From a virus: 37,182 nucleotides of DNA. Each line of letters opens with the position of its first letter. The stretch's first letter is position 1. Made by a program: the position numbers and the translations under genes. Location: the IMG/VR virus record IMGVR_UViG_3300043464_001746, positions 1 to 37,182 of that record; one strand, written 5' to 3'. The notes under the pieces were generated by a model. The model was not told the origin of the DNA. It ran no database searches and saw only the letters and a program-made list of their open reading frames with translations. This document shows positions 28,636 through 36,078 of this stretch, in pieces.

Positions 28636-30156
28636 TTAAATTAATCCCCCATCGGTTATAGTCCAATTATTCGGTGCGCTTGTTAATATTAATCTACCCG
28701 CTACTCCAGTTGATTCATATTTTGCAGTTCCAAAAGAAATGTTTAGTCCTGAGTTTACAAAAGTTAGTAAACTCCAAGTATTATAAATTGCGTTAAGATT
28801 GGTAGTTGAAAGTGTAGCTGGTGTTGCTGATGCCATAAAAGATACAAAATTAGCGACTTTAGATACATTCCAACTCGATATGATTCCATTAAAATCATTT
28901 GCGTTATCAAACATGCCCGACATATTGGTAACATTTGAAACGTCCCAAGATGATATGTCTTGATTAAAAGAAGTTGCACTTTGGAACATACCCGACATAT
29001 TAGTAACACTTGATACGTCCCAACTTGATATATCTTTGTCAAATGAAGAAATTGCAAACATACTATTCATATTGGTAACGTTTGAAACATCCCAAGAATT
29101 TATGTTTTGATTAAAAGAAGTTGCACTTTGGAACATACTACTCATATTAGTAACATTTGAAACGTCCCAAGATGATATGTCTTGATTGAAAACGGCTGCG
29201 TTATCAAACATGCCCGACATATTGGTAACATTTGAAACGTCCCAACTACTTATATCTTGATTAAAAGAAGTTGCATCTTGAAACATACTAGTCATATTAG
29301 TAACATTTGAAACGTCCCAAGAATTTATGTCTTGATTGAAAGCATTTGCGCTTTGGAACATACTACTCATATTAGTTACGTTTGAAACGTCCCAAGATGA
29401 TATGTCTTGGTTAAAAGCGTCTGCGCTTAAAAACATACCCGACATATTGGTAACATTTGAAACTTGCCAATATGATAAGTATTGGTTAAAAGCGGTTGCA
29501 TTACTAAAAATAAAACTCATATTTGTAACATTAGACACATTCCAATTACTTATATCTTGATTGAAAGAAGTTGCGTTTAAAAACATAGCATTCATATTAG
29601 TAACATTTGAAACGTCCCAAATATTAGCGTTATTAATTGATGTAATTGATGTGCAAATTGCAAAAAACGAACTCATATTAGTTACCCCTGACAATATAAG
29701 AGAATCTGAAACATTGTCTAATTGTAAATTATTGCAGTTAAAAAATGAAGAACTAGCATTTGGTAAAAAGCTAAGGCATCCCCATTGTAGTATTTCTGTT
29801 ATTTTTAAACAATCTGAATTATTTTCAAGAAAAGTCCATCCTCTACAAATGCCGTTTATAGTAATTGTATATGTTCCTGATGCTGAATAAGTATGCGTGA
29901 CTTGTGTTTGATTCCAAGCGGTAATTACATTTGAACTACCATCGCCCCAATTAACTGTAAAATTATATGTTCCACCGCTTATTAATGGTAATTTTACTTG
30001 TGTGCTTGTGCTTGACCCTGTTGAAGTGTTTGCGGTATTCCATGTAGATATAAAGTCAGGAATAGGCAAAACAGACATTTTGTTTAAAACTTTTGCTGTT
30101 TGTCTTGTTCCACTTACTCCTTGTTTACTATAAGGAAATGAATTACCTGCTCCCAT
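28636..30156 (-). CDS. BspA/DUF285-repeat tail protein, 506 aa
   Basis: A PKD-like N-terminal domain (about residues 40-100; '[18 protein letters not shown]') is followed by about 11 tandem 25-residue units of the form '[20 protein letters not shown]', running from about residue 160 to 440. These are the DUF285/BspA-type leucine-rich-like repeats of bacterial surface proteins. The array spans about 28850-29640 and is also repetitive at DNA level (75-bp period). A C-terminal cap follows (about 440-506). In a phage tail region such a repeat surface is best explained as a receptor-binding or adhesion protein. The upstream 168-aa gene is seven bases away. Unit number could vary by recombination. 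Confidence 0.8.
28850..29640 (-). repeat. 75-bp tandem repeats inside the DUF285 gene
   Basis: About 11 in-frame 75-bp units coding '[20 protein letters not shown]', several nearly identical over long stretches (for example the segments around 28940-29010 and 29120-29240). They are suitable for unequal recombination that changes repeat number. Confidence 0.75.
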
Positions 30157-30808: not shown

Positions 30809-32368
30809 ATGAACACTATTTTAAAAGACGTCATCGATGGTATTGACGCAAAAGAGCGAATTATGTCAGGCGTTGACAAATTAGCAAATCCTGTGGCATC
30901 GAGTATGGGTTATCGAGGAAGAACAGTACTTATTGAATCTCCTTATGGTTTACCGGAACCAACTCAAGACGGTTACAAAATTCTACAATCAATTTTCTTG
31001 GAAGACCCTGTTGAAGCAATGGCTTGTGAAATTGCCAAACAAGCATCGCAACGTACTGTTGATTTTGCAGGAGATTCTACAACTGCAACTATTGTTTTGT
31101 TACAAGCGTTTTTGCGAAATTCCATTGAAGCGGTAAAAAATGGCAAATCCGCAATTGACGTTAAAAACGAAATTGAAAAATCTCGTGATTTAATCTTAAA
31201 ATACCTTGATGAAATTTCAATTCCTGTAACCGACAAGTTAATTTACGACATTGCTTATACTTCTTCCCATTCAGATGACGAAATTGCCAAGATAGTATCA
31301 GAAGCATTTATCAAAGCAGGAGAATACGGAGCTGTAAGTCATTTACGAAGTGCAAACGATGAAACTCATTTAGAATGGATTGAAGGAACGCTTTTAGAAA
31401 GTGGTTATTCAAGTGATTTGTTTGTAAATAACTTCGCTGATAGAACTTGCGAATTTGCAAATCCGTTTGTGGTTTGTACAAATATCATATTTAAAACAGT
31501 TCGCCAAATACAACCGTTTTTAGAACGTTCTTTAAAAGAGCAAAGACCTATTGTTATTATTGCTGATTGGCAAGACGGACAAGCAAAAGAAATTGAAAGA
31601 TTAGTTATTGCTAATAAATTAGAACATAAACACCCTTTTGTATTGGTAAATTTGCCAAGTTTTGGCACTAAAAGACGTGATTTAATGAATGATTTAGCGG
31701 TTAGATGTGGTACTCAACTTCTTTCTTCTTTGTCGGGTGATGATTTTGCAGGTCGTGAAACTGCATTTATGGGAACTTGTGAAAAAATAGTAATTGGTAA
31801 ATCCGATACTATTATCACTCCATTTAAAAACGATAAAATTCAATCGCAAGTTGACAGTAAAATTGCTGAATTGCAAATTGAAGAAAAAGCATCTAAAAAT
31901 CAATTAGAAAAAAAGGACATAAAAGAACGTGTTTCAAAACTCCATGGCGGAATTGCTATGGTAAAAGTAGGTTCGATTATCGAAAGTGAATTGCAAGAGA
32001 AAATAGATCGCGTTGATGATGCTGTTTGTGCTGTTCGTTCTGCAAAAGAAGAAGGTGTTGTTGCGGGAGGTGGAGTTGCTCTTTTTAGTGCTTCAAGTAT
32101 TTTAATATGTAATTCTGATATTGCAAGTTTATCACTCGTAGCTCCTTTAAACAAGATTTTATTAAATGCCTCTGTAAAAAGTGATGCAAAAATAGGGAAA
32201 TACCCTTTTGGCTACGATGTAAAAAACTTCAAAGAAGTCAATATGATTGAAGTAGGAATTGTAGACGCAACTAAAGCAATCAAACACGCTTTAACAAATG
32301 CGATTTCGGCATCAAATACTTTATTAATGAGCGACCACGTAATTACAAATAAAAGAAACAATGGATAG
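30809..32368 (+). CDS. groEL: Phage GroEL-like chaperonin (Cpn60)
   Basis: A 519-aa type I chaperonin, somewhat shorter than bacterial GroEL (about 548). Nucleotide-pocket motifs are kept: 'TQDGYKI' (Asp54, E. coli Asp52), 'FAGDSTTATIVL' (Asp89, E. coli Asp87), 'KEEGVVAGGGVAL' (Gly420-422), 'RVDDAVCAVRSA' (about the E. coli Asp398 position) and 'GIVDATK' (Asp486, E. coli Asp495). The equatorial return 'KLHGGIAMVKVG' is present. The apical domain is diverged but recognisable (IEGTLLESGYSSDLFVNN). The GGM tail is missing. A plus-strand promoter TAAATTTG (30771-30778) with TTTG at 30747-30750 and an AAATCTAAATTTAAG leader precede it. It overlaps the GroES gene by eight bases, so it is probably a functional ATP-dependent folding machine for phage proteins. 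Confidence 0.92.
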   Translation: MNTILKDVIDGIDAKERIMSGVDKLANPVASSMGYRGRTVLIESPYGLPEPTQDGYKILQSIFLEDPVEAMACEIAKQASQRTVDFAGDSTTATIVLLQAFLRNSIEAVKNGKSAIDVKNEIEKSRDLILKYLDEISIPVTDKLIYDIAYTSSHSDDEIAKIVSEAFIKAGEYGAVSHLRSANDETHLEWIEGTLLESGYSSDLFVNNFADRTCEFANPFVVCTNIIFKTVRQIQPFLERSLKEQRPIVIIADWQDGQAKEIERLVIANKLEHKHPFVLVNLPSFGTKRRDLMNDLAVRCGTQLLSSLSGDDFAGRETAFMGTCEKIVIGKSDTIITPFKNDKIQSQVDSKIAELQIEEKASKNQLEKKDIKERVSKLHGGIAMVKVGSIIESELQEKIDRVDDAVCAVRSAKEEGVVAGGGVALFSASSILICNSDIASLSLVAPLNKILLNASVKSDAKIGKYPFGYDVKNFKEVNMIEVGIVDATKAIKHALTNAISASNTLLMSDHVITNKRNNG

Positions 32369-32663
32369 TGCTATACAAGAAATGGTTAATGCGTTTCCAG
32401 GACGAGCGCTTAACTACAATGTCGTTCTTCGTCAAATTGCCAATAAAAATGTTAGCGAAAGTGGATTAGACACTACTATTGCGGTTGATAAAAACGAAAA
32501 GTTAAAAAAAGGAATTGTAGTTTCTATTGGAACAGAATGTCCAAAAGGAGATATTGAACTTGGAAGTGAAGTAATGTATGATAGTTATAAAGCAAGTAAT
32601 GTTACAATAAATAATATAGAATATACTACTTTGTTTTACGCTGATTTGTTTCACGTTTTATAA
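32361..32663 (+). CDS. groES: Phage GroES-like co-chaperonin (Cpn10)
   Basis: A 100-aa protein whose core fits Cpn10. 'LNYNVVLRQIANKNVSESGLD' covers the first strand and start of the mobile loop, 'KLKKGIVVSIGTECPKGDIELGSEVMYD' the central barrel (compare GroES 'RGEVLAVGNG...VKVGDIVIF'), and 'EYTTLFYADLFHV' the C-terminal 'EEVLIMSESDILA'-like end. The start overlaps the groEL stop by eight bases, so it is translationally coupled. An extra N-terminal helix (about residues 1-15) precedes the usual start. A bidirectional hairpin terminator follows at 32684-32715. Fold and partner are strongly suggested by the gene pair. Confidence 0.85.
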   Translation: MDSAIQEMVNAFPGRALNYNVVLRQIANKNVSESGLDTTIAVDKNEKLKKGIVVSIGTECPKGDIELGSEVMYDSYKASNVTINNIEYTTLFYADLFHVL

Positions 32664-34525: not shown

Positions 34526-34771
34526 TTACATATTCTCATCTAATAATTTTAATACCCCCAACCAATTTTCTTTGGTTTTAAAATAAATCTCCATTTGGCA
34601 TTGTCCGGCTTTTTCTCGGTTCATGTATATATCAAGACCGTAGAGGTTTTGATCATCTTTGTAGGCATAATATCCTGCAAAATCAATTTGATTAAAGCAG
34701 AACATCACATATCCATCAACGTATATTTTTACTCTACCATTGTAGGTTTTAAATTCGTATTTGTGTGTCAT
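34526..34771 (-). CDS. Hypothetical protein, 81 aa
   Basis: A small, mainly beta protein, Tyr/Phe-rich (YEFKTYNGRVKIYVDGYVMF, FAGYYAYKDDQNLYGLDIYM), with a C-terminal 'KENWLGVLKLLDENM' helix. It overlaps no other gene, starts three bases after the stop of the 79-aa gene, and has the leader ATCTAAACTATAAACT. The N-terminal repeated 'KTYNGRVKIYVDGY' suggests a compact beta-barrel. No function is recognised. Confidence 0.5.
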   Translation of the reverse strand: MTHKYEFKTYNGRVKIYVDGYVMFCFNQIDFAGYYAYKDDQNLYGLDIYMNREKAGQCQMEIYFKTKENWLGVLKLLDENM

Positions 34772-35044: not shown

Positions 35045-35467
35045 TTATTGAACCGCCTCAACTTGTAAATCTACATTACCGCTTGCGGTCAATTTTTTTT
35101 CAATCTCGTCACTTTTCACTTCTGTGTCGTTAGCCAACCGAACAAAATACCCAAATTCACCCTCTTTCTTAGCACGAACAAAAGCAACACGAACAATCTC
35201 ACCCGTTTCTTTATTACAATACTCATTCACATTCGTTCTCTGCCATCCCACAAACGATCCAAATCTTTCCTCGTTACCTTTTAACTCAATTTCTTTCACA
35301 GGTTCCTTTGGAGCTGTTTCGCCTACTTTTACAATTGAACCAATCACTTTGTAAATTCCACTCTTGCTCATTCCTGTAGCTTTCATAATAACCTTAATGT
35401 TATCCCCAGAATTGTGCATATCTATAATACGCTTGTTTCTCAATTCCTTTTCCTGTAATTCAGTCAT
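35045..35467 (-). CDS. HTH DNA-binding protein, 140 aa
   Basis: Residues about 10-43 form a resolvase/transposase-type helix-turn-helix: 'NKRIIDMHNSGDNIKVIMKA' then 'TGMSKSGIYKVI'. After a linker, residues about 65-130 form a separate beta-rich domain (RFGSFVGWQRTNVNEYCNKE, GYFVRLANDTEVKSDEI). No catalytic Ser or DDE is present, so a transcription regulator is more likely than a recombinase. The promoter TATATTTG lies at 35496-35503, and just beyond it (35511-35704) is an array of TAGTCCACTTTTT-like units, which could be its own operators. First gene of the minus-strand small-gene operon. Confidence 0.65.
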   Translation of the reverse strand: MTELQEKELRNKRIIDMHNSGDNIKVIMKATGMSKSGIYKVIGSIVKVGETAPKEPVKEIELKGNEERFGSFVGWQRTNVNEYCNKETGEIVRVAFVRAKKEGEFGYFVRLANDTEVKSDEIEKKLTASGNVDLQVEAVQ

Positions 35468-35495: not shown

Positions 35496-35503
35496 CAAAT
35501 ATA
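35496..35503 (-). promoter_or_regulatory. Promoter -7 box TATATTTG before HTH gene
   Basis: TATATTTG fits TAnnTTTG, 28 bases before the ATG at 35467. The repeat array starts eight bases upstream of this box, where regulators would be expected to bind. Confidence 0.65.
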
Positions 35504-35510
35504 GTGTACT

Positions 35511-35704
35511 GTGTCCACTCTACCAAATAATTAGTCCACTTTTTTTAGTCCACTTTGTCTTAGACCGCTTCACCATTGACTTTACACCACTTTTTTTACC
35601 CAAAAGTAGACTGTTTTTGTCACTTTTTACCAAAGTAGTCCACTTTTATATCAAATGTGTCCACTTTTTTGAGTAGACTCTTTATAATTAGTAGACTTTT
35701 TTTA
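35511..35704. repeat. Degenerate TAGTCCACTTTTT tandem array (about 11 units)
   Basis: Units such as TAGTCCACTTTTTT (35532), TAGTCCACTTTGTC (35546), GTAGTCCACTTTTAT (35635), GTGTCCACTTTTTTG (35657) and GTAGACTTTTTTTAT (35691) recur, all in the same direction. Cores lie at about 35513, 35534, 35548, 35563, 35585, 35609, 35619, 35638, 35659, 35676 and 35694, so spacing is 10-24 bases and mostly near 14-22. The array begins right behind the HTH gene promoter. It could be an operator array or iteron-like origin. Two overlapping short readings across it are artefacts of the repeats. Confidence 0.75.
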
Positions 35705-36078
35705 TTGGTGAGAGTATGTAGGGGTAGTGGATAATACATACGTATACAGCTCTGCGTCGCCAAAAGAAAACGATTTTTTTGATGTACCCGCATCCCTTTT
35801 TTGAATTCCATTTTCAAAATATTTTAACTTTTAATATACTGATTTACAATGTATTATATAAAACTAATACTAATTTATAAGATTTTTAATACTATTCATT
35901 TAATAAAAGTTAATCTTAGCATGATTATGTTTTTAAATTGTAAATGCTTGATTTTGTTGCGTTTATGTTTGGATTGTGTTGTTTTATTCCGATATTTTAT
36001 TGAGTGATCCAATTCCAGGACCGTAAAACCTTTGTAAAGTGTTGATTTTGTTATGCTTGTGAGTGTTGCAAGGGAATA

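Follow-up and report, generated by a model that had tools for sequence, protein, structure and literature searches.

An array of short sites overlapping the promoter of a resolvase-type HTH gene in environmental Bacteroidota phages: a probable autoregulatory operator

In Cluster A mycobacteriophages, the repressor acts with stoperators, which are short asymmetric sites lying mostly in one orientation. One of these sites overlaps a promoter, and the consensus varies among related phages, tracking the repressor of each phage (PMC9262239, PMC6550527). The locus described here is alike in all of these features, a likeness that rests on the sites and not on a comparison of the proteins. Stoperators number up to about 30 and are spread genome-wide, whereas nearly all sites of the present locus lie within about 200 nt at the promoter of the regulator gene itself.

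Two other types of system are related to parts of this locus. The serine resolvases and invertases Sin, gamma-delta and Hin carry a three-helix HTH, and in the half-sites of Hin and the resolvases a short core is accompanied by an A-rich tract. The units of the array described here may be of similar composition, but they are arrayed and not paired. Plasmid iteron origins are composed of directional repeats beside a gene for a possibly cognate DNA-binding protein, an arrangement that is also seen here. The present locus differs from them in having no Rep match, no nearby DnaA boxes and an irregular spacing, and in that relatives lacking the HTH gene lack the array with it.

The whole stretch of DNA analysed (37,182 bp), referred to as the window, is a viral record of a tailed phage of Bacteroidota-type bacteria. 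Its capsid protein (about 40% identity) and terminase (28-51% identity) indicate distant kinship with Flavobacterium 'elemo' phages and Cellulophaga phages (e.g., phi38:1). The window also contains genes for a phage GroEL (519 aa) and GroES (100 aa) at 30809-32663 on the plus strand, running counter to the surrounding leftward genes, and for a 506-aa protein of repeated units at 28636-30156 on the minus strand, whose DNA repeats are 77-82% identical to each other.

Six HTH-bearing phages (the window, G011, G005, G010, G002 and G003), the distant ones located with the capsid protein and with an alignment of the HTH, were compared with three related phages that lack the HTH gene (G004, elemoA_7-9A and a contig of L077). 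The comparison comprises six independent HTH-array pairs, and several of the records are fragments. Another contig, G001, is 99.9% identical over 9.6 kb and has an array identical to that of the window, so it contributes no variation. The record G002:C1 (72,769 bp) is classed as linear, but its p272 homolog continues from contig end to end, so that the genome is probably circularly permuted and complete or nearly so. For an 81-aa protein encoded at 34526-34771 of the window (minus strand), identity among the window, G011 and G005 is 97%, against about 52-67% for its neighbours, which suggests recent transfer or strong constraint. In cultured-phage genomes, tblastn searches with three queries yielded no homolog of the HTH protein other than weak matches to its HTH portion, and none was found in GTDB genome contigs. 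Literature searches on crAss-like promoters and origins yielded nothing directly relevant. The features of the locus are as follows.

35045..35467, minus strand: HTH gene encoding a 140-aa protein with a resolvase-type HTH and a C-terminal beta domain, the presumed array binder
35496..35503, minus strand: -7 box TATATTTG (TAnnTTTG) of the HTH gene, from the sequence; reads CAAATATA on the plus strand
35503..35519, no strand assigned: imperfect dyad AGTGGAC-aca-GTACACT between the promoter boxes, touching the -7 box
35511..35704, minus strand: array of about 10 binding-site-like units, nine of them well supported, with positional equivalents in five other phages
35513, 35534, 35548, 35563, 35585, 35606, 35619, 35638, 35659, 35673 and 35691, plus-strand positions: starts of the 11 candidate units
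35524..35527, minus strand: -33 box TTTG of the HTH gene, from the sequence; reads CAAA on the plus strand, 20 nt from the -7 box
35706..35950, no strand assigned: conserved noncoding element adjoining the array, also retained where HTH gene and array are both missing

The array is best read as an autoregulatory operator array of the adjacent HTH gene that would be bound by the resolvase-type HTH protein, a reading given a probability of about 0.7. The core of its units on the HTH-coding strand is AAAAGTGGACTA (GTSKAC). The initial annotation counted about 11 units, and the candidates were scored by a leave-one-out weight matrix against the 74,122 other positions of the window on both strands. 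The units at 35534, 35548, 35638, 35659, 35673 and 35691 scored above all of these positions, and those at 35513, 35585 and 35606 were strong, with 6, 19 and 38 background sites, respectively, scoring as high. The unit at 35563 (GACCGC) was weak, being equalled by 92 background sites, and that at 35619 (GTCACT) stood at chance level, with 622. The array is real, and the earlier count holds for nine of its 11 candidate units. Successive units are 21, 14, 15, 22, 21, 13, 19, 21, 14 and 18 nt apart, with 20-22 nt (two helical turns) as a recurring spacing.

All five copies of the heptamer AGTGGAC (HTH strand) in the window fall within the 330 nt upstream of the HTH gene. In this 330-nt stretch, the best 7-mer family has seven members, compared with a mean of 4.0 and a maximum of 6 in 300 shuffles. 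A one-mismatch pattern scan of the entire window was not significant while the local tests were, so the significance is one of clustering. The sites are short, asymmetric and predominantly in one orientation. Three units read GTCTAC and not GTGGAC on the HTH-coding strand (GTAGAC on the plus strand), and their direction is ambiguous by core because the outer bases of GTNNAC are palindromic. The T-run flanks of these three units agree in direction with the other units. As was first reported, no gene plausibly covers the array, and no conserved reading frame crosses it in the relatives.

The TTTG and TATATTTG boxes of the HTH gene match the -33/-7 Bacteroidetes promoter consensus (PMC2483708), and a TAnnTTTG box lies 33-40 nt ahead of the ATG in all six HTH-bearing phages. 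The array is directly upstream of the HTH gene. The initial annotation had placed it directly upstream of the promoter; its first unit, however, lies inside the promoter, between CAAA (35524-35527) and CAAATATA (35496-35503). By its sequence, one unit thus overlaps the promoter within the -33/-7 spacer. A mirror half-site, GTACACT, follows this unit after 3 nt and abuts the -7 box. Sequence comparison identified equivalents of this dyad in G011, G005 (TTGAAC-gtc-GTTCACT) and G010, making it clear in four of the six HTH-bearing phages. In five of the six, including the window, a unit starts exactly 15 nt ahead of the -7 box despite the changed spelling. The exception is G003, in which the nearest unit is 21 nt from the -7 box, so that activation, not repression, is possible in that phage.

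The 140-aa HTH protein is predicted to contain helices at residues 3-19, 24-31 and 35-45, a linker with pLDDT below 50 and strands at 58-111. The full-length model is of low confidence (pTM 0.38), and therefore only its HTH part was used. This N-terminal domain superposes on the DNA-binding domains of Sin and of gamma-delta/Hin at 0.8-1.0 A over 33-39 residues. Profile searches returned HTH families of a generic kind, among which the resolvase HTH was the most frequent; PF02796 was matched in five of the six family members, with the match of the window protein falling under the curated cut-off. Unlike Sin, gamma-delta and Hin, the protein has a C-terminal beta domain and no catalytic resolvase domain. 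Foldseek gave no match with E < 0.001 for the protein, and the beta domain had no significant structural match, the viral structure library included.

An array is found at the equivalent place in all six HTH-bearing phages, in four spellings. The HTH proteins of G011, G005, G010, G002 and G003 are 67%, 54%, 53%, 47% and 36% identical to that of the window, respectively. The window and G011 have the GTGGAC core in common (in full AGTGGACA in G011), G005 and G010 have GTGAACGATT (in full AGTGAACGATT and AGTRAACGATT, respectively), G002 has GTGACCAA and G003 has GGGACAG. Each array fits the consensus derived from itself and the one from the phage whose HTH protein is most similar; the fit to the remaining consensuses is poorer or absent. 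At two mismatches, the window consensus partly matches the G005 array because a single base separates the cores GTGGAC and GTGAAC. In G005, GTGAACGA occurs five times in the array versus once elsewhere in 69 kb; its de novo test was weak, with 10 of 300 shuffles reaching the observed family. The more degenerate array of G010 was not singled out by exact 7-mer multiplicity. Own-motif sites outside the arrays numbered 1-5 per phage at one mismatch in 24-74 kb, too few for dispersed sites of the stoperator type.

The array was present in all six phages with the HTH gene and in none of the three related phages without it, and chance association is unlikely, although the sample is small. The phage nearest to the window in backbone, L077 (GroEL 78% identity), has neither the HTH gene nor the array, yet the window shares its core with G011, with an HTH identity of 67% but identities of only 42% for GroEL and 28% for p272. 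The closest backbone pair is G002 and G005 (GroEL 86%, capsid 90% and p272 72% identity), but their HTH proteins are only 58% identical and their motifs are GTGACCAA and GTGAACGATT, respectively. The motif common to G005 and G010 accompanies an HTH identity of 61% and a GroEL identity of 48%. In the alignment, the recognition helices of the same-motif pairs read S[KR]SG[IV]YK (window and G011) and SK[GA]GVHK (G005 and G010), and different ones occur in G002 (SKTAVHK) and G003 (NKNKVSR). The motif spelling follows the HTH protein and not the genome. Relatives with the HTH gene retain the array, each in a spelling that goes with its own HTH protein, so that the initial annotation's criterion of the same motif in such relatives had to be refined. 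The conserved position, the co-divergence of spelling with the HTH protein and the unit inside the promoter favour the earlier proposal of a cooperative operator array built from a real binding-site family. The position of the HTH gene is occupied in G004 by an unrelated gene of up to 199 aa; the promoter region of that gene (G004:C1:57580-57650) contains a single palindrome-like TGTAATGAATGTACATTACA running into TACATTTG and no array.

The sign of regulation is an inference from this arrangement: the HTH protein probably represses its own operon. The protein would bind the asymmetric units of about 9-12 bp, probably cooperatively. When bound to the unit in the -33/-7 spacer, where the mirror half-site also touches the -7 box, it would exclude RNA polymerase, and the HTH gene and the leftward operon that it heads would be subject to negative autoregulation. 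The units further upstream may be cooperative or reserve sites, making the response sharper or setting its timing through cooperativity or titration. The HTH gene and its array would make up a single module, with gain, loss or change of specificity affecting both at once, and related phages would thereby have differing specificities.

Activation is an unlikely alternative, in which the HTH protein would serve as a transcriptional activator of an early-to-late switch and the array as its upstream activating region. The array reaches about 220 nt upstream of the promoter, the protein has a weak profile similarity to the phage Mor and late-activator families, and the HTH gene leads an operon that runs toward the structural genes, all of which are consistent with this role. 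However, the HTH promoter already has recognisable -33/-7 boxes, and occlusion is favoured by the unit in their spacer together with the half-site that, in most relatives, touches the -7 box.

It is quite improbable that the array is a replication origin whose iterons are bound by the HTH protein as initiator; a likeness to iterons had been noted in the initial annotation. The divergent intergenic region is AT-rich and about 1.2 kb long, and the detrended cumulative GC-skew minimum falls at the array region in G002 (4314), G003 (2020) and G010 (12070). The skew does not single out the array, however, since the minimum is at the equivalent place (57534) in G004, which has neither array nor HTH gene, and is 8 kb away in G005; it is also confounded because gene direction switches at the array region. 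Related phages exist without array and HTH gene, one unit lies within a promoter, and no DnaA-type box (TTWTNCACA) was found within 1.5 kb of the array in any of the six array-bearing phages. No Rep-type initiator was identified beside the array, the HTH protein having matched only HTH families.

The adjoining noncoding element has equivalents in G002, G003, G004, G005, G010, G011, L077 and elemo. It is kept in G004 and L077, and in recognisable part in elemo, without the HTH gene and array, and is therefore not part of the HTH-array module. Its blocks AATCRTRNYAAGAYTA and AAAASNYAAAANRTTT are 62-92 nt apart in several phages. No RNA structure was predicted for it from a ragged alignment, and it matched no Rfam family. 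The GC-skew minimum falls on this element in several genomes, which makes it a candidate origin, and if an origin is located here, it is a better candidate than the array.

A partition centromere of the parS/parC type with an autoregulated centromere-binding protein is highly improbable. Centromere arrays often lie within the promoter of the gene for their own binding protein, and the HTH protein has a weak profile match to the plasmid ParB HTH, but no ParA-type ATPase (PF13614) was found in eight related records, some of them fragments. A recombination or resolution site is hardly credible, because the resolvase-type HTH belongs to a 140-aa protein without a catalytic domain and no serine recombinase (PF00239) was found in the other array-bearing records searched, some of them fragments.

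The presumed autoregulatory operator array may have a wider meaning. It is tentatively suggested, at less than even likelihood, that the locus represents an undescribed phage regulator family, in which a resolvase-type HTH protein and the operators clustered at the promoter of its gene constitute a swappable specificity module. Among the elemo and Cellulophaga-phage kin, close relatives would exchange the protein jointly with its array, and immunity groups might be defined in this way. The Phage_integrase domain is present in G002, G005 and G004 and not in G003 or G010, and with this patchy distribution lysogeny cannot be claimed as a general property. The six HTH proteins and their presumed matching DNA words, in four spellings, form a natural series from which the way a resolvase-type HTH alters its specificity could be learned. 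Gene control in environmental Bacteroidota phages is poorly understood, and the locus suggests that they have a regulatory module, perhaps an immunity-like one; the possibility that differences in specificity decide which phages can co-infect is directly testable.
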